Shown here: positions 45,988-54,988 of the stretch, one piece after another | Layout: each line of letters opens with the position of its first letter | Numbering within the stretch: the stretch's first letter is position 1 | Assembly: GCF_023022985.1 (NCBI RefSeq) | Contig: NZ_CP095461.1 | Span: 124,001-188,000 of the forward strand | DNA from: Arthrobacter gengyunqii | GTDB lineage: Bacteria; Actinomycetota; Actinomycetes; Actinomycetales; Micrococcaceae | Length of the DNA: 64,000 nucleotides | Direction: 5' to 3' | Translations under genes and position numbers: made by a program | The notes under the pieces: model-generated | Databases searched by the model: none | Told to the model about the DNA's origin: nothing | The model's input: only the letters and a program-made list of their open reading frames with translations

Positions 45988-46487
45988 ACGGTCAGCTGAC
46001 GCTTCGAGGAGATGACTCCGGTGTTGAATCCGGCCAGATTCAATCCGCCATGGAAGCGGGCGTGCTCGATTTTCACGCAACGGTCCATCACCACGTCCAG
46101 CCCGGCGGCTTCCGCGTCGCGGGCCACTTCCTCGTGCCAGGACCCCAGCTGCAGCCACAGCGTTTTCGCTCCAACGGCAATGCTCTCCTGCAGCACGGAG
46201 GGCAGGTCATCATGGCGGCGGAACACATCCACGATGTCCGGGACTTCCGGCAGGTCAGCCAGCGACGCGTAGACGGGCCGACCCAGGATCTCCTTGGCCA
46301 CCGGATTCACAAAGTACACCGTGTACGGCGACGATGAGAGCAGATAGGTTGCCACGAAATAGGACGCCCGTGACGGTTTATCCGAGGCACCCACAATCGC
46401 AATCGACCTTGCCCGGCGCAGCAGCGCCAGCCTCTCCGGAGCGCTCGGGCTCTCCCAGGTGCGCGGTGCGGCAGCTTCAGCGGACAT
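45984..46487 (-). CDS. CoA-binding domain protein
   Basis: 167 residues. The Rossmann-like CoA-binding fold is shown by ARSIAIVGASDKPSRASYFVATYL, VNPVAKEILGRPVYASLADLPEVPDIVDVF and TLWLQLGSWHEEVARDAEAAGLDVVMDRCVKIEHARF. Related proteins bind CoA through a conserved pocket and a late cysteine; the reaction is unknown. The start ATG 46487 has GAGGAG upstream and overlaps the end of metY by 11 bases, so it is probably co-translated with MetY. A second, shorter relative lies at 55738-56157. Confidence 0.88.
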   Translation of the reverse strand: MSAEAAAPRTWESPSAPERLALLRRARSIAIVGASDKPSRASYFVATYLLSSSPYTVYFVNPVAKEILGRPVYASLADLPEVPDIVDVFRRHDDLPSVLQESIAVGAKTLWLQLGSWHEEVARDAEAAGLDVVMDRCVKIEHARFHGGLNLAGFNTGVISSKRQLTV

Positions 46488-47805
46488 GTTCGGACTCCTC
46501 AAGTTCACGGACAGAATCGGGTACAACGGCAATCGAAAGGGCCTGGTCCAGGTCCCAGAGAATGTCCTCCAGGTCCTCGAGGCCAACCGAAATCCGGACT
46601 AGATCTTCAGCCACTCCGGCGGCGGTGAGCTGCTCCGAAGAGAGCTGTCCGTGCGTGGTGGATCCTGGATGAATGACCAGGGTCCGTGAATCGCCCACGT
46701 TGGCCAGATGCGAGGCCAGCTGCAGGGCCTCAATGAAGGTCTTGCCGGCCTCCCGGCCGCCGCGCACACCGAAGCTGAAGACCGAGCCCGGGCCCTTGGG
46801 CAGGTACTTCCGGGCACGGTCAAAGTGCGGATGGGAGGGCAGGCCCGCATAGCTGACCCAGGACACCCGCTCATCGGCTTCGAGCCATTCAGCCACGGCC
46901 TGCGCGTTTTTGAGGTGCTCGTCCAGGCGCTGCGGGAGGGTTTCCACCCCCTGCAGCAGTGCAAATGCCGAGGTTGCGCTCAGGGAGGGACCGATGTCCC
47001 GGAGCTGTTCCGAGCGCAGCTTCGTCAGGAACCCGTATTCGCCGAAGTTCCCCCACCAGGAGATGTTGCCGTAGCTGGCCACCGGTTCGGTCATCGCCGG
47101 GAACTTTCCGTTGCCCCAGTTGAACTTTCCGGATTCGACGACGACGCCGCCCAGAGTGGTGCCATGCCCGCCCAGGAACTTGGTGGCGGAGTGGATCACA
47201 ATGTCCGCGCCGTGCTCAAACGGCCGCACCAGGTACGGCGTGCTTAGGGTGGCGTCCAGGATCAGCGGCACACCGGCGTCGTGCGCCACTTTGGCCAGCC
47301 CGGCAATGTCGGTGACCTCGCCGCTGGGGTTGGCGACCACCTCGGCGTAGACGGCCTTGGTATTCTCCCGAATGGCCGCGGCATAGTCGGCCGGATCGGT
47401 GCCGGCCACGAAGGTGGTGTCGATCCCGAACCGTCGCAGGGTCACGTCCAGCTGGGTGACGGTGCCGCCGTAGAGCTGCGCGGCCGCCACAATGTGGTCA
47501 CCGGCGCCGCACAGCGCGGCGAAGGTGACAAATTCCGCGGACATGCCCGACGCCGTCGCCACCGCTCCGATGCCGCCCTCCAGAGACGCGATGCGCTCCT
47601 CGAAGGCCGCCACCGTGGGGTTGCCGATCCGGGAATAGATGTTGCCGTACTTCTGCAGCGAGAACAGGTTTGCGGCGTCGTCGGTGTCCTTGAAAACAAA
47701 GGACGTGGACTGGTAGATGGGCACGGCACGGGCGCCGTGCGTGGCGTCGGGGGTGCCGCCGGCGTGCAGGGCACGGGTACGGAAGCCGAACTGGCGATCA
47801 CTCAT
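46477..47805 (-). CDS. metY: O-acetylhomoserine aminocarboxypropyltransferase (sulfhydrylase)
   Basis: PLP enzyme that makes homocysteine or methionine from O-acetylhomoserine and sulfide or methanethiol. The 442-residue protein has FGFRTRALHAGGTPD at the start, YSRIGNPTVAAFEERIASLEGG, and the PLP lysine in IHSATKFLGGHGTTLGG. Length exceeds that of MetB-type enzymes and matches MetY. The frame extends to 47976, but AAGGAG and family alignment put the start at ATG 47805. Unlike the ssu-like genes at 52 kb, I see no SAM riboswitch in its leader, only a short hairpin. Confidence 0.94.
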   Translation of the reverse strand: MSDRQFGFRTRALHAGGTPDATHGARAVPIYQSTSFVFKDTDDAANLFSLQKYGNIYSRIGNPTVAAFEERIASLEGGIGAVATASGMSAEFVTFAALCGAGDHIVAAAQLYGGTVTQLDVTLRRFGIDTTFVAGTDPADYAAAIRENTKAVYAEVVANPSGEVTDIAGLAKVAHDAGVPLILDATLSTPYLVRPFEHGADIVIHSATKFLGGHGTTLGGVVVESGKFNWGNGKFPAMTEPVASYGNISWWGNFGEYGFLTKLRSEQLRDIGPSLSATSAFALLQGVETLPQRLDEHLKNAQAVAEWLEADERVSWVSYAGLPSHPHFDRARKYLPKGPGSVFSFGVRGGREAGKTFIEALQLASHLANVGDSRTLVIHPGSTTHGQLSSEQLTAAGVAEDLVRISVGLEDLEDILWDLDQALSIAVVPDSVRELEESEHVR

Positions 47806-47830
47806 GAAATGAGTGCTCCTTCCTGGTGTG

Positions 47831-47847
47831 CCGCCGCAAAGCGGCGG
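47831..47847 (-). promoter_or_regulatory. Short hairpin in the metY leader
   Basis: CCGCCGC pairs with GCGGCGG around a three-base loop, about 10 bases upstream of the metY ribosome binding site. It could influence translation, but nothing identifies it as a known riboswitch. Confidence 0.3.
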
Positions 47848-47975
47848 GTGGATCGTTGCAAGTAGAGGGCGGCGGACGAACAATGGGGAACAGGACTGCA
47901 AGGCTGGGCAGGACCGCAGATCCGAGACGGACAGCGGCGGGGGAGCCGGACGGCACGACGAAGGGCAAGATCCCA

Positions 47976-48236
47976 ATGGACCAATACGTGGTTGTCATCG
48001 AGACCGGCTACAAAGTTGCCGCCGCAACACACAAGGTCACCGCAACAGATCCGATGCCGCAGGTGGAGGCGAACCGGCTGTTCCTGGAACTGCTGGAGGG
48101 CATGCACGCTGACCTGCTGCCGGCCAAGGCGGACACCACCATGCTGGAGGTTTCCGCCACGGAATTTGTGCGCATCCACCGCCTGATGGGCGGAGTGGTG
48201 GTGCTGGACCGGGTGACTCTGGCCCGCGTTCACTGA
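47976..48236 (+). CDS. Small conserved hypothetical protein
   Basis: 86 residues, MDQYVVVIETGYKVAAATHKVTATDP onward, soluble, alternating strand and helix pattern (VVVIETG, MLEVSATEFVRIHRL, VVVLDRVTL). I do not recognise a family. It is divergent from metY and converges on acs, overlapping the acs 3' end by 7 bases. No good ribosome binding site is visible; an upstream GGGCAAGATC is weak. It may be a real small actinobacterial protein. Confidence 0.55.
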   Translation: MDQYVVVIETGYKVAAATHKVTATDPMPQVEANRLFLELLEGMHADLLPAKADTTMLEVSATEFVRIHRLMGGVVVLDRVTLARVH

Positions 48237-50248
48237 CCCGCCCCGCGGCGGCGCGCTTCGCACACATTCTCGATGTCCGCGATGCACGGTTCATTCTGCA
48301 GGCTGGTGGTGTCGCCCAGTTGCGTGCCCTCGAAGAGCTGGGTCAGCAGCCGGCGCATGATTTTCCCGGACCGGGTCTTGGGAACATCAGGAACCACGAC
48401 GACGGCGGCCGGCTTGGCGATCGGTCCGATCTGGCGGGCGATATGTTGCCGAAGCTCCGCCGTGACCAGCCGGGCGAAATCCGGGTCAGGTGCGGTCGTC
48501 GGTTCAGTTCCCGCGGCGGGCGCCGCGGAGGACAGCACGACAAACGCGGCAATGGCATGTCCGGTCTTCGGATCCGCGACCGGGCAGACACCGGCTTCGG
48601 TGACCCAGGGGTGGGACACCAGGGCTGACTCGATCTCGATTGTGGAGAGCCGGTGCCCGGAGACGTTGAGGACGTCGTCGGTGCGCCCCAGGATCCAAGT
48701 GTCGCCGTCGTCGTCGTATTTGGCGCCGTCCCCGGCGAGGAACCAGCCCTGCCGCGCGTACTGCCGCCAGTAGGAAGCCAGGTAGCGCTGCTGATCGCCC
48801 CAGACGGTGCGGGCCATGGCCGGACCGGTCTTGTCCACCACGATGAACCCCTGGGTGTTTGGGGGCACGGGGTTTCCACCCTCGTCCACAATCCGGGTGG
48901 ACACCCCGGGCAGGGCGCGGGAGGCGCAGCCGGGTTTGAAACCGGTGTCGGTGGGACGCGGGGAGAGGATGGTGGCGCCGGTTTCGGACTGCCACCAGGT
49001 GTCAATCACGGGCACTTCACCGCGGCCGAGCTGCTCGCGCATCCACCGCCACGCCTCGGGATTCACCGCCTCGCCCACGGTGCCAAGCAGCCGGATGGAG
49101 GAGAGATCCCAGGTGTCCGGCACGCCGTCCGGGAACCAGCCCATCAGCGACCGGACCAGCGTGGGAGCGGTGTAGTAGCTGGTGACTTTGTAGCGTTCGA
49201 TGATTTCGAAGTGGCGTCCCGGATGCGGGGTGTTCGGGGTGCCTTCGAAGATCACCTGTGTGGCACCGTTGGAGAGCGGCCCGTAGATTTCGTAGGTGTG
49301 CGCGGTGACCCAGGCCAGGTCCGCGGTGCACCAGTGAACGTCCGCTTCCCGTGCACGTTCGTCCGGGTTCGCGAAAAGGAACTCGTAGCTCCAGGACGCC
49401 TGGGTCAGGTAACCGCCCATGGTGTGTACGAGGCCTTTGGGACGTCCGGTGGTTCCGGACGTGTACATGATGAACAGCGGCGTTTCGGCGTCGAAGGCCT
49501 CGGCTGCGTGGACGTCGGAGGCGGTGTCCACGGTCTCGTGCCACCAGAGGTCGCGGCCCTCGGTCCAGGCGATGTCGCACCCGGTGCGGCGGACCACCAG
49601 GACGTGTTCGACGGCGTTGGTCCCGGCGACCGCGGCATCGGCGTTGTCCTTGACCGGCACGGCGGTGCCGCGGCGGAACTGGCCGTCGGTGGTGACCAGC
49701 AGCTTGGCGCCGGTGTCCTCGACCCGGAATTTCAGGGCTTCGGCGGAGAAGCCGCCGAACACCAGGGAGTGGACGGCGCCGATCCGGGCACACGCCAGCG
49801 TGATGACGATGGTTTCCACGATGACCGGCAGGTAGATGACCACGCGGTCACCTTTGCCGATGCCCAGGTTCAGCAGTGCGTTCGCGGCGCGGCAGACCTC
49901 GCGCTGCAGATCCGCATAGGTGACGGTGCGCCGGTCACCGGGCTCGCCCTCAAAGTGCAGGGCCACCTTGTCCCCGCGGCCGGCGGCAACGTGGCGGTCC
50001 ACGCAGTTCACGGCCACGTTCAGGGTTCCGCCGGCGAACCACTCGATGGCCGGGACGCTGTAGTCGGCGTCGGACTCCGGGATCTCCGGTCCGCTCAGCC
50101 GCTGCGGCGGGGTAAACGTATGCGCGGTGTGCCAGGGCTGCTCCCACTGCAGCTGCCTGGCTGCGGCTTCCCAGAACGCGATCCGCTCGGTTTCGGCGGT
50201 TGGGTCCGCAGTAAGAGTGGATGTCAGGCCCATTTTGCCACCGCCCAT
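48230..50248 (-). CDS. acs: Acetyl-CoA synthetase (AMP-forming)
   Basis: Activates acetate to acetyl-CoA through acetyl-AMP. The 672-residue protein carries the ANL-superfamily motifs YTSGTTGRPKGLVHT, GRTDDVLNVSGHR and the regulatory lysine in KTRSGKIMRR near residue 625, the site acetylated in other Acs proteins. Start may be ATG 50248 or ATG 50233; neither has a strong ribosome binding site. Either overlaps the permease stop (50224-50226), so acs is translationally coupled to the sulfonate-type transporter operon. A second acetate route (pta-ackA) lies at 14-17 kb. Confidence 0.95.
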   Translation of the reverse strand: MGGGKMGLTSTLTADPTAETERIAFWEAAARQLQWEQPWHTAHTFTPPQRLSGPEIPESDADYSVPAIEWFAGGTLNVAVNCVDRHVAAGRGDKVALHFEGEPGDRRTVTYADLQREVCRAANALLNLGIGKGDRVVIYLPVIVETIVITLACARIGAVHSLVFGGFSAEALKFRVEDTGAKLLVTTDGQFRRGTAVPVKDNADAAVAGTNAVEHVLVVRRTGCDIAWTEGRDLWWHETVDTASDVHAAEAFDAETPLFIMYTSGTTGRPKGLVHTMGGYLTQASWSYEFLFANPDERAREADVHWCTADLAWVTAHTYEIYGPLSNGATQVIFEGTPNTPHPGRHFEIIERYKVTSYYTAPTLVRSLMGWFPDGVPDTWDLSSIRLLGTVGEAVNPEAWRWMREQLGRGEVPVIDTWWQSETGATILSPRPTDTGFKPGCASRALPGVSTRIVDEGGNPVPPNTQGFIVVDKTGPAMARTVWGDQQRYLASYWRQYARQGWFLAGDGAKYDDDGDTWILGRTDDVLNVSGHRLSTIEIESALVSHPWVTEAGVCPVADPKTGHAIAAFVVLSSAAPAAGTEPTTAPDPDFARLVTAELRQHIARQIGPIAKPAAVVVVPDVPKTRSGKIMRRLLTQLFEGTQLGDTTSLQNEPCIADIENVCEARRRGAGQ

Positions 50249-51051
50249 TTTTCCGCCAGGCCGAGCAAAGCATCGGTGATCTTGCCGATGACGGCCAGCA
50301 GCACGATGGCCAGCAGCAGACGGTCCGTGCGCCCGTTGTTCTGCGAATCGATCAGCAGGAATCCCAGACCCATGGACGATGCAATAAGTTCAGCGGCAAC
50401 CAGGAACAGCCAGGCCTGTGCCAGTGCCAACCGCAGGCCGGAGAACACCGCCGGCACGACGGCGGGCAGCTGCACCGTTCTCAGTAGCTTCAGCCCGTTG
50501 AGTCCAAAGGCGCGGGCAGCCTCCACCAGGTTCCGGTCCACGTGGCGCAGCGCCAGGGACACGGTGGTGAACACGGGAAAAAACGCGCCGATGGCAATCA
50601 GGGTGATCTTCGAATCCTCGCCGATCTTCAGCCACAGGATCAGCAGCGGCACCCAGGCCAGGGACGGCACCGCGCGCAGCGCGCCGATCATCGGACCCAG
50701 CAGGACTTCCGCCAGCCGGGACAGCCCCAGCACCGCGCCCAGCGCTAGGCCCAGCAGGGCGCCGATGGCAAAGCCGACCAGCACCCGCTGGGTGGAAATG
50801 GCAACGTGCAGGCCAAGCTGTCCACGGCCGATCAGGTCAACCGCCGCGGTGTAGACGGCCGACGGCGAAGGCAGCTGGACCGGGCTGAAGATCCCGGCCG
50901 CCGTGGTGATCTGCCAGGCGGCCAGTACCAGGGCGGGAACCACCAGGCCCAGACCCGCGCGGGTCCAGCGACTGGTCAGGATGGTGCCGGCCGGCGCTGT
51001 ATTCCCGGCACCGGCGCTCGCGGATGCCGGGGTCTTCAGGACCGAACTCAT
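50224..51051 (-). CDS. ABC transporter permease, SsuC/TauC/NrtB family
   Basis: 275 residues with six membrane segments. The cytoplasmic EAA loop is AARAFGLNGLKLLRTVQLPAVVPAVFSGLRLALAQAW, which contacts the ATPase. This is the permease of an aliphatic sulfonate, taurine or nitrate type importer. The ATG overlaps the lipoprotein stop as ATGA and the stop overlaps the acs start. The SAM riboswitch upstream of the operon makes a sulfur compound the likely substrate. Confidence 0.9.
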   Translation of the reverse strand: MSSVLKTPASASAGAGNTAPAGTILTSRWTRAGLGLVVPALVLAAWQITTAAGIFSPVQLPSPSAVYTAAVDLIGRGQLGLHVAISTQRVLVGFAIGALLGLALGAVLGLSRLAEVLLGPMIGALRAVPSLAWVPLLILWLKIGEDSKITLIAIGAFFPVFTTVSLALRHVDRNLVEAARAFGLNGLKLLRTVQLPAVVPAVFSGLRLALAQAWLFLVAAELIASSMGLGFLLIDSQNNGRTDRLLLAIVLLAVIGKITDALLGLAEKWAVAKWA

Positions 51052-52106
51052 TGTGCATCCGAAATGGACTCGGGATCAGCGGACTTCACGAAGGAGTCAT
51101 CGAACAGGCCGTCCAGTGCCTTGTCCACGGCGTCCTGGCCGGCCACGTCTCCGGTTTCCACCAGTGTGGGGCCGATTTTCTCCAGCACGCTGCGCTGGGC
51201 CTCACCCGGGGCGGGGTCCACGTCGAGGTTGCTGCGTTCCAGCACCACGGTCTGGGCCACTGCCAGGTCCAGGCCGGCAACATCGGCCAGGATCTGCGCC
51301 GTTTCCTCCGGGTTTTCAGCAGCCCACGCGCGGGCCTTCTCATATGCGTTGACCACGGCCTGGGCCAGTTCCGGATCCTCTGTCAGGAAGGATTCGTTGG
51401 CGGCAAGGATGCCGTAGGTGTTGAAGTCCAGGTTGCGGTGGATCAACCGGGCACCGTTTTGTTCGGCACCCGCCATGATCGGGTCCAGCCCTGCCCAGGC
51501 ATCCACTGATCCGTTTTCCAGGGCGCTCCGGCCATCCGCGTGCTGCAGTTGCTCAACGGTGACGTCCTCCAGAGTCAGGCCGGCCTCCTCCAGCGCCTGC
51601 ACCAGGAAGAAGTAGGGGTCGGTGCCCTTGGTTGCGGCGACCGACTTGCCCTTGAGGTCCGCTACCGAGGTGATGGCGGAGTCGGCGCCCACCGCCAGGG
51701 CCGCCCATTCCGGCTGGGAGAAAATGTCGATGGCCTTGATCGGGGATCCGTTGGCGCGGTTCAGCAGGGCTGCGGACCCTGCGGTGGAACCGACATCGAT
51801 TGCCCCGGAGCGCAGGTTCTCATTGGCCTTGTTGGAGCCGGCGGACTGCACCCACTCCACCGTGACGCCGTCGTCGGCCAGGGCGGATTCCAGCCAACCC
51901 TGGTCCTTGATGATCAGGCTCAGCGGGTTGTAGGTGGCGAAATCGAGCGTGAGGGTTCCGCCGTCGGCTGCGCCTGCGTTGGCGGCGGCATCGGAATCCT
52001 CGCCTGCCACGCACCCGGTCAGCAGCAGGGAAGCCGCGGCGGCAACGGCGGCCAGGGTTCTAAGGGTGGTGCGGGCGGGGCGGGAACTGTGGGAACGGCT
52101 GTTCAT
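51048..52106 (-). CDS. Periplasmic-binding lipoprotein of a sulfonate-type ABC importer
   Basis: 352 residues. A positively charged N-terminus and hydrophobic stretch end in the lipobox LLTGC (cysteine 32), so it is lipid-anchored outside the membrane. The mature domain, LTLDFATYNPLSLIIKDQGWLESAL and SAGSNKANENLRSGAIDVGSTAGSAAL, matches SsuA/TauA/NrtA-like binding proteins. The frame extends to 52190 but the signal peptide places the start at ATG 52106. Ligand unknown; operon control indicates an organosulfur compound. Confidence 0.9.
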   Translation of the reverse strand: MNSRSHSSRPARTTLRTLAAVAAAASLLLTGCVAGEDSDAAANAGAADGGTLTLDFATYNPLSLIIKDQGWLESALADDGVTVEWVQSAGSNKANENLRSGAIDVGSTAGSAALLNRANGSPIKAIDIFSQPEWAALAVGADSAITSVADLKGKSVAATKGTDPYFFLVQALEEAGLTLEDVTVEQLQHADGRSALENGSVDAWAGLDPIMAGAEQNGARLIHRNLDFNTYGILAANESFLTEDPELAQAVVNAYEKARAWAAENPEETAQILADVAGLDLAVAQTVVLERSNLDVDPAPGEAQRSVLEKIGPTLVETGDVAGQDAVDKALDGLFDDSFVKSADPESISDAQ

Positions 52107-52222
52107 GGGAGTTCTTTCTGAAGAGTTGGCTGCGAATAGTCGCGGTTCAGGCGCAAAAGGGGCGCAGAACTGCTGATGGAGCGGCCCCAAGCAAGGAGGG
52201 GGCGACGCCGGGGAGGAGCGGC

Positions 52223-53047
52223 TTAGTGGCGATCGACGCCGAGGCGGGCCAGGAGTTCGCCGCGCATTCGGGCCAGCTCCGCCGAGGCGCGGTCTCGTGG
52301 ACGCGGGCCGGGCACGGTGATGGTCTCGGTGATGGCGGCCCCGGTAACACCGGGTTCCTTGCCCAGGATGATGATGCGGTCGGCCAGTTGGAGGGCCTCA
52401 TCCACGTCATGGGTCACCAGCAGTACCGTGGTGGGGCTGGCGCGGTGCACCGCGAGCAGCAGGTCCTGCATCTTGAGTCGGGTCAAAGCATCGAGCGCGC
52501 CGAACGGCTCATCCAGCAGCAGCACCCCGGGGGTTCGTGCCAGGGCCCGAGCCAGGGAAGCGCGCTGCGCCATACCTCCGGAGACTGCCCGCGGCCGGTG
52601 CTTGGCAAACGCCGCCAGTTCCACCAGCTCCAGGAGTTCGGCCACTTTGGCCTTACCGTTTTTAGCGCTCATGCTCTTGGGCAGGCCCATGGCAATGTTG
52701 GCCTGCAGAGTTTGCCAAGGCAACAGCCGCGGTTCCTGGAACGCGACGGCGCACCGGTCATCGATGCCGCGGACCGGTGTTCCGTCGATGCGGACTTCTC
52801 CGGTCGTTGGAGCATCCAGGCCGGCGGCGGCGCGCAGGAGCGTGGACTTTCCGCAGCCGCTGGAGCCCAGAATGGCCAGGACCTCACCGGCGTGAATGTC
52901 AAAGGTTATGTCCCGCAGCACCTGATGAGTTTCACTGCCGGAGCCGAAGGCGCGGCCCAGCGAGGAAAAGGTGACGGGCAGTGCGGAGCCGGCGGTGCGC
53001 CCGTGGGGCGGCGCGGCGGCAGGGGACTGTGAAGCCAGAGCGGTCAT
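52223..53047 (-). CDS. ABC transporter ATP-binding protein, SsuB/TauB/NrtD family
   Basis: 274 residues with Walker A GSSGCGKST (about residue 78), Q-loop VAFQEPRLLPWQ, signature VSGGMAQR, Walker B VLLLDEPFGALD and the switch histidine THDVDEA. This energises the importer encoded downstream on the same strand. ATG 53047 is preceded by GGAGAG at 53053-53058, which partly overlaps the closing helix of the SAM-I riboswitch. It is the first gene of the operon ATPase, binding protein, permease, acs. Confidence 0.93.
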   Translation of the reverse strand: MTALASQSPAAAPPHGRTAGSALPVTFSSLGRAFGSGSETHQVLRDITFDIHAGEVLAILGSSGCGKSTLLRAAAGLDAPTTGEVRIDGTPVRGIDDRCAVAFQEPRLLPWQTLQANIAMGLPKSMSAKNGKAKVAELLELVELAAFAKHRPRAVSGGMAQRASLARALARTPGVLLLDEPFGALDALTRLKMQDLLLAVHRASPTTVLLVTHDVDEALQLADRIIILGKEPGVTGAAITETITVPGPRPRDRASAELARMRGELLARLGVDRH

Positions 53048-53056
53048 GTTAACTCT

Positions 53057-53213
53057 CCATCGGTCCTGGCAGTAGCACCCTACGGATAACACCTTGGGCC
53101 GTTGCGGGCCTCCTGCGGTGCTGTCCTCGCTATTGCCGTTCCTCAAGGAGGAGGGACGGCAACCAGGGTTGCTGCGGCTTCACTGATCCAGGTCTCTCAG
53201 CCGCTCGGGATGG
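53057..53213 (-). ncRNA. SAM-I (S-box) riboswitch upstream of the sulfonate-type ABC transporter operon
   Basis: On the minus strand P1 is CCATC (53209-53213) paired with GATGG (53057-53061). Between them lie S-box core elements in order: GGCTGAGAGACCTGG, TGAAGCCGCAGCAACC and, before P1 closes, GGTGCTACTGCCAGG. These are the actinobacterial variants of the conserved SAM-I strings. A long variable arm separates the last two. P1's 3' arm runs into the ribosome binding site GGAGAG, so SAM binding should block translation of the ATPase gene. Confidence rests on recognising the core; an Infernal search against RF00162 would decide. Confidence 0.82.
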
Positions 53214-53222
53214 TCAAGTGCA

Positions 53223-53251
53223 ACTAAACGCTCGATTGCGGAAAGCGGCAA
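53223..53251 (-). promoter_or_regulatory. Promoter of the ABC transporter operon
   Basis: On the minus strand TTGCCG (53246-53251) and TTTAGT (53223-53228) are 17 bases apart. Transcription would start near 53216, just three bases before the first paired base of the SAM-I riboswitch, which supports both assignments. Confidence 0.6.
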
Positions 53252-53334
53252 GTCCCCTGCGTAATATTTCGACGCCGCCTTCACCGCAGGCACCTGGGCC
53301 GCCGTCTGCCGTTACGCTCCGTGACGGCTACGGC

Positions 53335-53364
53335 TTGCCCGCTGATCAGCGCTGTGCGAATACT
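53335..53364 (+). promoter_or_regulatory. Promoter of the monooxygenase gene
   Basis: TTGCCC at 53335-53340 and AATACT at 53359-53364 are 18 bases apart. The start site near 53371 lies three bases before the SAM-IV riboswitch. Confidence 0.5.
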
Positions 53365-53373
53365 GGAGCCGAA

Positions 53374-53487
53374 GGATCATGAGTCCCAACGCAAAGCTCT
53401 GGCTGGTTGGGCGGCAACCCTCTTTCCGTAGCGGGGTGCCCCAGATGAGGATCCGGCCGTGTCGCGTCCGCGAACGGCAAGTACGGC
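53374..53487 (+). ncRNA. SAM-IV riboswitch upstream of the FMNH2-dependent monooxygenase gene
   Basis: P1 is GGATC (53374-53378) with GATCC (53450-53454). The characteristic strings follow in order: ATCATGAGTCCCAAC, GGCTGGTTGGGCGGCAACCC, GCGGGGTGCCCC and GATGAGGATCC, then a hairpin TCGCG-TC-CGCGA (53462-53473) and CGGCAAGTACGG. This order, with the second hairpin and GGCAAG-containing tail after P1, is that of SAM-IV RNAs known from Actinobacteria, not SAM-I. About 40 bases separate it from the GTG start, which has GAAGGA. Search against RF00634 would confirm. Confidence 0.85.
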
Positions 53488-53527
53488 GCTCCTTCGCAGG
53501 TGCGTCCCGTTTCCGAAGGATGTCCCC

Positions 53528-54988
53528 GTGGCCAGCCTGCCCAGCCAATCCGACCAGTCCAGCCAGTCCGAGCCGGTCGAACAGCTCGACCAGCGCACCC
53601 CGCGGCAGATCCGGTTCAACGCCTTCGACATGAACTGCGTGGGCCACCAGTCGCCCGGACTCTGGCGCCACCCTGAAGACCGCTCGGCTGACTACACCAA
53701 GCTCAGCTACTGGACGCATCTGGCCCGGACCTGCGAACGCGGCCTGTTCGACGGAATCTTCATTGCCGATGTCCTGGGCACCTATGACGTCTACGGGTCC
53801 TCCAACGATGCCACCCTTCGCCAGGGCACCCAGGTGCCGGTGAATGACCCGCTGCTGCTGGTCTCCGCCATGGCCCTGGTCACCGAACACCTCGGCTTCG
53901 GCGTCACGGCCGGCACCGCGTATGAGCACCCCTACCCGTTTGCCCGGCGCCTCTCCACCCTGGACCACCTCACCAACGGCCGGGTCGGCTGGAACGTGGT
54001 GACCGGGTATCTGCCCTCGGCGGCACGCAACATGGGTGCCGAAGACCAACTGGAGCACGACGAGCGCTACAACCACGCCGATGAATATCTTGAGGTGGTT
54101 TACAAGCTGCTTGAAGGATCCTGGGAGGACGACGCCGTTGTCCGGGACCGGGAGACCGGCGTGTTCACCGATCCGGCGAAGGTCCACGACATCAACCACG
54201 AGGGCAAGTACTTCAAGGTCCCGGGCATTCACATCAGCGAGCCCTCGCCGCAGCGCACTCCGGTGATCTACCAGGCCGGTGCCTCACCGAGGGGCATCGC
54301 CTTTGCTGCCGGGAACGCCGAAGCAGTGTTTGTCGGCGCGTCCACGGTGGAGAAGCTCAAGGAAACCGTCACCAAAATCCGCGACGCCGCCGAGGCCGCC
54401 GGCCGGGACCGGCACTCCATCCGGATTTACACCCTGCTGACCATCATCACGGCCGCAACAACGGAGGAAGCCGAAGCCAAGCACCTGGACTACCAGAGCT
54501 ACATCAGCGACGAGGGCGCCCTCGCCCTGATGTCCGGCTGGATGGGAGTTGATCTCTCCACCTACGAACTCGACCAGCCGCTGGGCGCCGTGAAATCCAA
54601 TGCCATCCAGTCCGCGGCCGCCAACTTCCAGAAAGTAAAGGACGACGGCGAACCCTGGACGGTGCGGGACATCGCCGAGAGCGCCGGCATTGGGGGCCTG
54701 GGCCCGAGGCTGGTCGGATCCGGTGCGGAGGTGGCCGAGGAGCTGATCCGTTGGGTGGAGGAGACCGACGTCGACGGCTTTAACCTGGCCTACGCCGTTA
54801 CTCCGGGCACGTTCGAGGATGTGGTGGAATTCGTGGTTCCCGAGCTGCAGAAGCGCGGGGCATATCCCACGGAGTACGCTCCCGGGACCCTGCGGAATAA
54901 GCTCTTCGGTGCCGGGGACAAGCTGCCGGAAAACCACCGCGGCGCGTCCTTCCGGCTGCAGAAGGCTGGTTCGGTGCGGAGCCATTGA
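53528..54988 (+). CDS. FMNH2-dependent monooxygenase of the NtaA/SnaA/DszA group (luciferase-like family)
   Basis: A 486-residue two-component flavin monooxygenase of the bacterial luciferase fold. Diagnostic segments are DMNCVGHQSPGLWRHPED, ARTCERGLFDGIFIADVLG, HPYPFARRLSTLDHLTNGRVGWNVVTG and VIYQAGASPRGIAFA. Relatives oxidise nitrilotriacetate or open organosulfur rings and sulfones, using FMNH2 from a separate reductase not seen here. The frame opens at 53459 inside the riboswitch, but GTG 53528, 7 bases after GAAGGA, is the start. The SAM-IV riboswitch upstream implies a role in scavenging sulfur when SAM is low. Confidence 0.92.
   Translation: MASLPSQSDQSSQSEPVEQLDQRTPRQIRFNAFDMNCVGHQSPGLWRHPEDRSADYTKLSYWTHLARTCERGLFDGIFIADVLGTYDVYGSSNDATLRQGTQVPVNDPLLLVSAMALVTEHLGFGVTAGTAYEHPYPFARRLSTLDHLTNGRVGWNVVTGYLPSAARNMGAEDQLEHDERYNHADEYLEVVYKLLEGSWEDDAVVRDRETGVFTDPAKVHDINHEGKYFKVPGIHISEPSPQRTPVIYQAGASPRGIAFAAGNAEAVFVGASTVEKLKETVTKIRDAAEAAGRDRHSIRIYTLLTIITAATTEEAEAKHLDYQSYISDEGALALMSGWMGVDLSTYELDQPLGAVKSNAIQSAAANFQKVKDDGEPWTVRDIAESAGIGGLGPRLVGSGAEVAEELIRWVEETDVDGFNLAYAVTPGTFEDVVEFVVPELQKRGAYPTEYAPGTLRNKLFGAGDKLPENHRGASFRLQKAGSVRSH

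Follow-up and report, generated by a model that had tools for sequence, protein, structure and literature searches.

Why do two SAM riboswitches of different classes stand back to back between two divergently transcribed sets of genes, and does the mixing of classes matter? The question is raised by a spacer in Arthrobacter gengyunqii (contig NZ_CP095461.1). A first-pass annotation made from the letters alone had placed there a SAM-I RNA on the minus strand, before an SsuABC-like transporter operon, and a SAM-IV RNA on the plus strand, before a DszA/NtaA-type monooxygenase. Positions below refer to the window, i.e., the whole 64,000-nt stretch of DNA that was analysed.

Two SAM riboswitches in one divergent spacer

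Scanning both strands of positions 52000-54600 with the Rfam covariance models (cmscan, E up to 1) gave two matches, on opposite strands and belonging to one Rfam clan, SAM-IV and SAM-I, both where the annotation had put them. The SAM-IV match (RF00634) scores 97.0 bits against a curated cut-off of 38 bits, with model positions 1-116 of 116 aligned. The SAM-I match (RF00162) is the top clan match at its site with 41.8 bits, i.e., 2.6 bits short of the curated cut-off of 44.4 bits. Its alignment leaves out 75 letters at a place in P3 that takes up 5 in the model, and this insertion accompanies the low score. In the whole genome (3.69 Mb, one contig), which has five SAM-IV and three SAM-I matches, the two other SAM-I are without it and score 58.8 and 45.1 bits, while the ssu leader of Arthrobacter mobilis (L235), with a very similar core and a short P3 hairpin, scores 53.7 bits. 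The features of the locus are as follows.

48230..50248, minus strand: acetate--CoA ligase gene (acs), downstream of the ssu genes on the same strand (TIGR02188, 773.3 bits against a cut-off of 724.95)
50224..51051, minus strand: ssuC-like permease gene (PF00528; PRK11365 SsuC, under its cut-off)
51048..52190, minus strand: ssuA-like binding-protein gene (TIGR01728 SsuA_fam, 213.6 bits against a cut-off of 163.5)
52223..53047, minus strand: ssuB-like ABC ATPase gene (PF00005; top NCBIfam match PRK11247, aliphatic sulfonates, under its cut-off)
53054..53216, minus strand: SAM-I-type aptamer with P3 insertion, leader of ssuB-ssuA-ssuC (RF00162, E 1.7e-7)
53055..53061, minus strand: 3′ strand GAUGG of SAM-I P1, overlapping the Shine-Dalgarno GGAG (53058-53055)
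53223..53251, minus strand: putative SAM-I promoter TTGCCG-17-TTTAGT, read by eye
53335..53364, plus strand: putative SAM-IV promoter TTGCCC-18-AATACT, read by eye
53375..53489, plus strand: SAM-IV aptamer, monooxygenase leader (RF00634, E 7.6e-18)
53426-53430 and 53482-53486, plus strand: SAM-IV PK-2 strands CCGUA and UACGG
53485..53506, plus strand: hairpin GGCGCUCC/GGUGCGUC, candidate switching element
53515..53520, plus strand: monooxygenase Shine-Dalgarno GAAGGA (GTG start at 53528)
53528..54988, plus strand: NtaA/DmoA-family FMN-dependent monooxygenase gene (TIGR03860, 568.3 bits against a cut-off of 279.7)

The TIGR03860 match agrees with the annotated type of monooxygenase. Among the ssuB-, ssuA-, and ssuC-like products only SsuA exceeds a curated cut-off, that of TIGR01728. 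An alpha/beta hydrolase gene and then a gene for a CoA-binding protein lie 3′ of the monooxygenase on the plus strand. From their family assignments, SsuABC and the monooxygenase are predicted to act on an organosulfur compound, their substrates being putative. Beyond the ssu and acs genes lies an O-acetylhomoserine sulfhydrylase-type gene (46477-47976, minus strand). A second copy of this type in the genome (L001) has as its leader the strongest SAM-IV, at 125.2 bits.

The layout is not a matter of chance, because a SAM-I with the insertion precedes ssuB in 28 of 29 genomes of the genus and, of the 17 genus loci whose fetched stretch includes the monooxygenase gene, 16 have SAM-IV as its leader. 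Promoters with 17-18-base spacing had also been proposed before each RNA. Both can be made out by eye and have conserved -10-like elements (TTTAGT in 28/28 SAM-I leaders, ATACTG in 16/16 SAM-IV leaders of the genus), but a scan of 52980-53560 gave no sigma-70 consensus promoter. Promoters before both RNAs are therefore best called plausible. The same scan gave no intrinsic-terminator-like site. Upstream of the putative SAM-I promoter, a motif (A/G)AAT(A/G)TTAC (53261-53269 on the minus strand of the window) is present 53-54 nt 5′ of SAM-I in 16 of the 28 genus leaders. It is possibly an activator site or an UP element. At two other loci, c-di-AMP riboswitches (RF00379, over cut-off; L160:9051-9231 and L167:9049-9230, both minus strand) lie ~4 kb from the ssu leader.

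A SAM-I-type core without P4

The minus-strand RNA has the P1, P2, and P3 core of SAM-I, with GCAACC and GGUGC, which we take to be the ligand-contact bases. The same core is present in the 28 genus leaders. The L2-J3/4 pseudoknot (PK-1) is formed by CCUGG and CCAGG, and is compensated to CCUGCC/GGCAGG in L007 and L054. Over 27 distinct pairs, its mean run is 5.37 against 5.04 with shuffled partners (p 0.0015). P1 pairs CCAUC with GAUGG, its outer two pairs not being formed in the cmscan alignment, and the Shine-Dalgarno GGAG lies inside GAUGGAG. This overlap of the closing helix with the ribosome-binding site had been noted in the first-pass annotation and holds throughout the genus, GATGGAG followed within 2-10 nt by a start codon being kept in 28/28 genus leaders; the same is true of 22 of 25 other leaders. 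A ribosome-binding site within the 3′ strand of SAM-I P1 has been described, as has translation control outside Firmicutes (PMC2258182). Folding of the leader as a single strand gives a z of only -1.76.

SAM-I has a P4 helix and SAM-IV does not (PMC6890682). In the window RNA, 13 nt, including the pseudoknot strand, join P3 to the 3′ strand of P1, and P4 is missing. The same 13-nt form is seen in 20 of the 27 distinct pairs parsed from the family. Six further pairs (three with 9 nt and three with 19 nt) appear by eye to have this form with a shifted parse, and only L115, with 29 nt, has room for a P4 hairpin. Judged from these parsed sequences, the window RNA and most SAM-I of the Micrococcaceae are without P4. 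Since P4 is absent, we refer to the RNA as SAM-I-type and not as canonical SAM-I.

The SAM-IV leader

In the plus-strand RNA, CCGUA in the P3 loop can pair with UACGG in the 3′ tail, as expected for PK-2. Over 23 SAM-IV leaders, the Watson-Crick run of PK-2 is 5 in nine, 4 in four, and 3 in ten; in these counts the wrong tail was taken for G004, G006, G010, and G014, where CCGUA and UACGG are present by eye. In L182-L189 the pairing requires G-U pairs (by eye). Just 3′ of the PK-2 strand, the hairpin GGCGCUCC/GGUGCGUC keeps at least six of eight pairs in 23/23 leaders (mean 7.04 against 5.75 shuffled). PK-2 and this hairpin have a GG in common, and therefore the two may exclude each other. Pairing between the Shine-Dalgarno and an anti-Shine-Dalgarno strand is weak (mean z -0.79, with z below -1 in 9 of the 23 leaders), and, folded as a single strand, the leader does no better than shuffled sequences (z -0.44). 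Such single-sequence folding is uninformative for this RNA, presumably owing to its pseudoknots. Because no terminator is seen, translation control is the likelier mode of action of the SAM-IV expression platform. The 5′ CCGAAGGAU of the transcript repeats the Shine-Dalgarno and was considered as an anti-anti-Shine-Dalgarno strand; this role was rejected, as GCAGGAUC stands there in many other genus leaders.

A conserved three-way-junction domain inside P3

Two points had escaped the first reading of the minus-strand RNA, the missing P4 and the nature of the insertion. The insertion in P3, of ~77 nt, folds into a conserved three-way-junction domain, with the following parts, all on the minus strand.

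53075..53175: P3 with the nested three-way-junction domain, the stretch modelled as R1 and R2 (covariation, alignment A3)
53086..53162: inserted stretch of 77 nt (parsed here; family-wide alignments)
53162-53134: P3a hairpin
53133-53125: junction AUAGCGAGG
53124-53086: arm P3b
53145..53150: P3a hexaloop CUCCUU, one partner of a proposed kissing pair (covariation suggestive)
53111..53116: P3b internal loop GCAGGA, the other partner

Within the genus this plan is fixed: a P3a hairpin, a junction that mostly reads AUA(A/G)CGAGG, and the arm P3b with its internal loop. The secondary structure has the support of covariation. Two-sided changes are seen in 10 of 32 pairs with 23 sequences and in 19 of 32 with 47 distinct sequences, where the covariation score is 0.417 against 0.045-0.094 for slid controls. 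With 82 distinct sequences (A3), 94.4% of cells are paired, 19 of 32 pairs change on both sides (454 cells), and the score is 0.426 against 0.047-0.072, in an alignment that, like A2, was made to structure-carrying models and so leans toward that structure. Alignment A1 was made by MAFFT, and the structure supplied came from folds of the same sequences. For the 23-, 47-, and 82-sequence sets, respectively, the count of two-sided pairs was matched or exceeded in 5, 1, and 16 of 500 shuffles, and the number of further pair types was as high in 500, 198, and 0 of 500. Pairing is poorest in the apical helix of P3b (64.4, 77.7, and 86.9% in the three sets), and the outer P3 helix is nearly invariant and thus carries little covariation information. 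Of the 85 members, 19 have CUGAC in the apical loop of P3b, and these all belong to genus g10 (L156, L172, L177, L275, L276, L285, L291-L293, L295-L301, and L303-L305). In 16 of them it reads exactly CUGACCA, and the stem varies.

Model R1 identified the domain in 38 of 245 genomes of the family and model R2 in 85 of 395, in both cases in five of 32 genera. In a sample of the order, R2 gave 9 of 396 genomes, all Micrococcaceae, and in a sample of the phylum 1 of 396, the source genome itself. Hence no domain was seen outside Micrococcaceae in these 396 order and 396 phylum genomes, in searches whose strict filters lose weak matches. The next gene is ssuB in 28/28 genus loci, in 22 of 25 others, and in 33 of 36 further leaders with the domain. 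Among the remaining cases, the L155b leader heads a binding-protein gene (TIGR04028, under its cut-off), L157b and L175 are followed by ORFs of comparable length, the neighbours of L287 have no match to the window's genes, and in L301 and L303, where ssuB has no match, the domain stands before acs. In genus g8, the domain is present in a second SAM-I leader (L155:5211-5312, L157:4873-4974, and L175:5059-5158 on the minus strand; L164:8866-8970 and L287:1439-1543 on the plus strand). The source genome's domain-free SAM-I at L006 heads a TIGR04028-family gene like that of L155, both proteins being under the cut-off. In a quick tree of 56 SsuB proteins, 50 from leaders with a long P3 and 6 with a short one, five of the P3-short rows fall outside the P3-long clade (support 100), and A. 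mobilis (L235) falls inside it with modest support. The simplest reading of this tree would be one gain and at least one loss of the domain.

Several roles for the insertion were considered and rejected. A known RNA family hidden in it was set aside, as an Rfam search with E up to 10 returned only SAM-I itself and a 13.7-bit miRNA match. A ribosome-binding site with a small ORF was rejected by eye, no start codon being fittingly spaced after GCAGGAG. For the CUCCUU loop of P3a, an anti-Shine-Dalgarno decoy was rejected as a general role, since other genera have CCCC or ACCC.

The P3a loop and the P3b internal loop may contact each other. In most other members the P3a loop contains CCC and the P3b loop GGG, and at least three contiguous Watson-Crick pairs between the two are possible in 49/49 and 81/85 sequences; a parallel-strand control also gives 47/49. 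With shuffled partners, p is 0.0002 over all 49 rows, 0.22 over the 22 distinct combinations, and 0.50 over the 20 outside the genus, and in the larger set 0.09 over 47 distinct combinations. With shuffled loop letters, p is 0.002. CCCA goes with UGGG (Fisher p 0.014, relatedness uncorrected) in a table that lost six rows to a pattern and leaves out 8 of 48 distinct combinations without CCC or GGG. Taken together, the data are suggestive of a kissing pair, which we regard as likely. In L304-L306, which are weak and distant members, the GGG side of this putative pair is lost; they may represent decay or another variant of the P3 domain.

The conservation of the domain raises the possibility that it is a second sensor, for a small molecule, an ion, an RNA, or a protein, set into the SAM-I aptamer. 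In this scenario, the Micrococcaceae ssu leader would be a nested two-input riboswitch, integrating SAM with a second sulfur or nutrient cue at sulfonate uptake. A few features point this way: the unpaired A48, C50, A52, A122, U132, and G136 and the CC/GG loops are conserved in at least 94% of 47 distinct rows, the gene context is nearly fixed, genus g8 has its extra copy before a binding-protein gene (L155), and the CUGAC loop of genus g10 is kept on varying stems. There is also a precedent in the tRNA-fMet input to a Xanthomonas SAM-I leader, which acts on the expression platform and not on the aptamer (PMC7270179). However, the conserved unpaired positions are few for a ligand pocket, the Rfam search of the insertion returned nothing beyond SAM-I and the 13.7-bit miRNA match, the A. 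mobilis leader manages without the domain, and L304-L306 lose the GGG side. We therefore think a second sensor rather unlikely, and structural tuning of the aptamer the likeliest role of the P3 domain. The A. mobilis leader, a natural RNA of very similar core without the domain, makes this role directly testable.

Distribution of the mixed pair and a probable class exchange on the monooxygenase leader

Searching the genus for the same pair recovered it in 16 of 29 genomes. A divergent SAM-I/SAM-IV pair 136-260 nt apart is present in nine (G000, G024, G018, G022, G001, G004, G006, G010, and G014), the two RNAs are 1.0-1.1 kb apart in six (G023, G007, G002, G003, G005, and G012), with a hydrolase-like gene between them in G007, G002, and G003, and 8.6 kb apart in one (G011). 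The mixed pair is absent from 13 of the 29. The monooxygenase is missing from the stretch fetched in 11 genomes, no SAM-I match was found in one (G017), and G013 has SAM-I on both sides. The mixed pair is thus real and inherited, yet not universal in the genus.

A wider view came from the best 80 of 578 monooxygenase loci in named genomes, to which the leader counts that follow refer. They were classed by a pattern scan that detects 34/34 SAM-IV and 55/61 SAM-I, so that the label "none" can miss a SAM-I; for 11 of these loci cmscan was run as well, and next to the gene it gave the same result as the pattern in 11/11. Some Arthrobacter and Pseudarthrobacter have SAM-IV before the monooxygenase (L182-L186, L188, and L189), and others have SAM-I (L193, L199, L201, L224, L225, L235, and L243). 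Moreover, two divergent SAM-I leaders lie between the ssu operon and the monooxygenase in L235, L238, L247, L250, L251, and L254, the hosts being Glutamicibacter, Paeniglutamicibacter, Arthrobacter, and a Micrococcaceae MAG. In L235, a CoA-binding gene separates the two leaders. The plus-strand SAM-I of L238 is the leader of an SfnB-like gene, and some monooxygenase genes labelled "none", the one of this locus included, stand second behind a SAM-I. A pattern-found SAM-IV heads an SfnB-like gene in L164. Both SfnB-like proteins are under the SfnB equivalog cut-off, and their place behind SAM leaders is in keeping with the sulfur-scavenging module proposed earlier.

The Micrococcaceae monooxygenases are 71-96% identical to the window's protein, and their genes are likely orthologues. 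A quick tree was made of 94 monooxygenases, 23 labelled IV, 8 labelled I, and 63 labelled none (54 of the latter being one clade, mostly Microbacteriaceae), with L180 and L181 (which duplicate genomes G012 and G005) and L205 (incomplete translation) left out. On this tree the three labels require five changes, and the riboswitch-bearing rows alone require two; by parsimony, the monooxygenase leader would have changed riboswitch class at least twice. As either class stands before related monooxygenase genes and the tree requires these changes, SAM-I and SAM-IV seem to have replaced each other before one gene, and the mixed pair seems to be one version of a common divergent arrangement. The annotated layout, two SAM classes back to back, is accordingly retained as described and becomes one variant of a wider theme, in which SAM-I/SAM-I pairs occupy the same spacer in related genera. 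This apparent class swapping on the same gene, and side-by-side use in one regulon, would make the interchangeability of SAM classes testable.

Could the pairing of two classes itself have been selected, so that differences in affinity or kinetics between SAM-I and SAM-IV stagger transport and oxidation? Its recurrence in 16 of the 29 genomes, with <300 nt between the RNAs in nine, speaks for this proposal. Against it, closely related monooxygenase genes bear either class (two changes by parsimony), SAM-I/SAM-I fills the same position elsewhere and in G013 of the same genus, and 11 of the 29 genomes lack the monooxygenase gene there. We consider selection for the mixture improbable; class switching and the SAM-I/SAM-I relatives lend no support to a special purpose for it.

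A model for the locus

We favour, with good but not full confidence, a model of two independent SAM-repressed leaders in a common divergent spacer. When SAM is plentiful, the P4-less SAM-I-type aptamer on the minus strand would bind it and fold, and P1 would capture the ssuB Shine-Dalgarno, blocking translation of the sulfonate-type transporter operon. SAM-IV on the plus strand would do likewise for the NtaA/DmoA-type monooxygenase, PK-2 probably competing with the adjacent conserved hairpin and thereby altering access to the Shine-Dalgarno. Both leaders thus probably repress translation when SAM is plentiful, a reading that is clear for SAM-I and less certain for SAM-IV. Falling levels of SAM and methionine would switch on the uptake of an organosulfur compound together with its oxidation. 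The mixed pair would have originated when a SAM-IV/monooxygenase cassette was gained or lost next to the ssu operon, and through class exchange on the monooxygenase leader. The P3 domain would have been gained on the ssu SAM-I leader within Micrococcaceae and kept as a structured module, probably stabilised by tertiary contacts, that tunes the aptamer.

Two further readings of the minus-strand RNA were weighed against this model. Variable insertions are common in riboswitches (PMC2258182) and A. mobilis, whose ssu leader is nested among those with the domain, does without it, so the insertion might be an ordinary one, tolerated and functionless. The same source calls such insertions nonconserved, whereas the P3 domain keeps its structure and junction sequence over five genera and has a covariation score of 0.426 against at most 0.072 in slid controls; we give this reading little credence. 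That the RNA is a decayed SAM-I which no longer binds SAM, as its score under the Rfam cut-off and its missing P4 might suggest, is highly improbable, given that it is kept in 28 of the 29 genus genomes and in four other genera, that GCAACC, GGUGC, PK-1, and the P1/Shine-Dalgarno overlap are all retained, and that the two over-cut-off SAM-I copies of the same genome also lack P4.

Comparison with known SAM riboswitch systems

No description of a divergent SAM-I/SAM-IV pair or of such a P3 domain was found in the open-licence papers searched, and the main text of a survey of contiguous riboswitches (PMC12452182) contains neither "divergent" nor "opposite strand". Compared with SAM-I (RF00162), the window RNA shares the P1-P2-P3 core, GCAACC/GGUGC, the L2-J3/4 pseudoknot, and a ribosome-binding site in the 3′ strand of P1 (PMC2258182). 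It differs in having no P4, a 77-nt conserved three-way-junction domain in P3, and a score under the curated cut-off. A conserved domain within a SAM-I-type aptamer is thereby exposed, and Rfam's SAM model under-scores such RNAs; the domain is the part of the system for riboswitch specialists to follow. The SAM-IV aptamer (RF00634) has nothing unusual, with a full-length match, P5, the PK-2 strands, and an architecture as in PMC6890682. What sets it apart here is its setting, before a monooxygenase gene and opposite a SAM-I.

Mixed SAM riboswitches are known in tandem, SAM-II with SAM-V and SAM-II with SAM-I/IV (PMC9481103). These systems likewise combine two SAM classes in one leader region, but they are arranged in series before one gene, whereas the pair in the window is divergent and serves two transcripts. 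Close relatives are also the divergent SAM-I/SAM-I leaders of the six loci listed above, which likewise lie between the ssu operon and the monooxygenase. They differ in that SAM-I stands on both sides, with a short P3 in the ssu leader. The layout in the window is therefore the mixed-class version of a family habit, and it is real, conserved, and functionally coherent.
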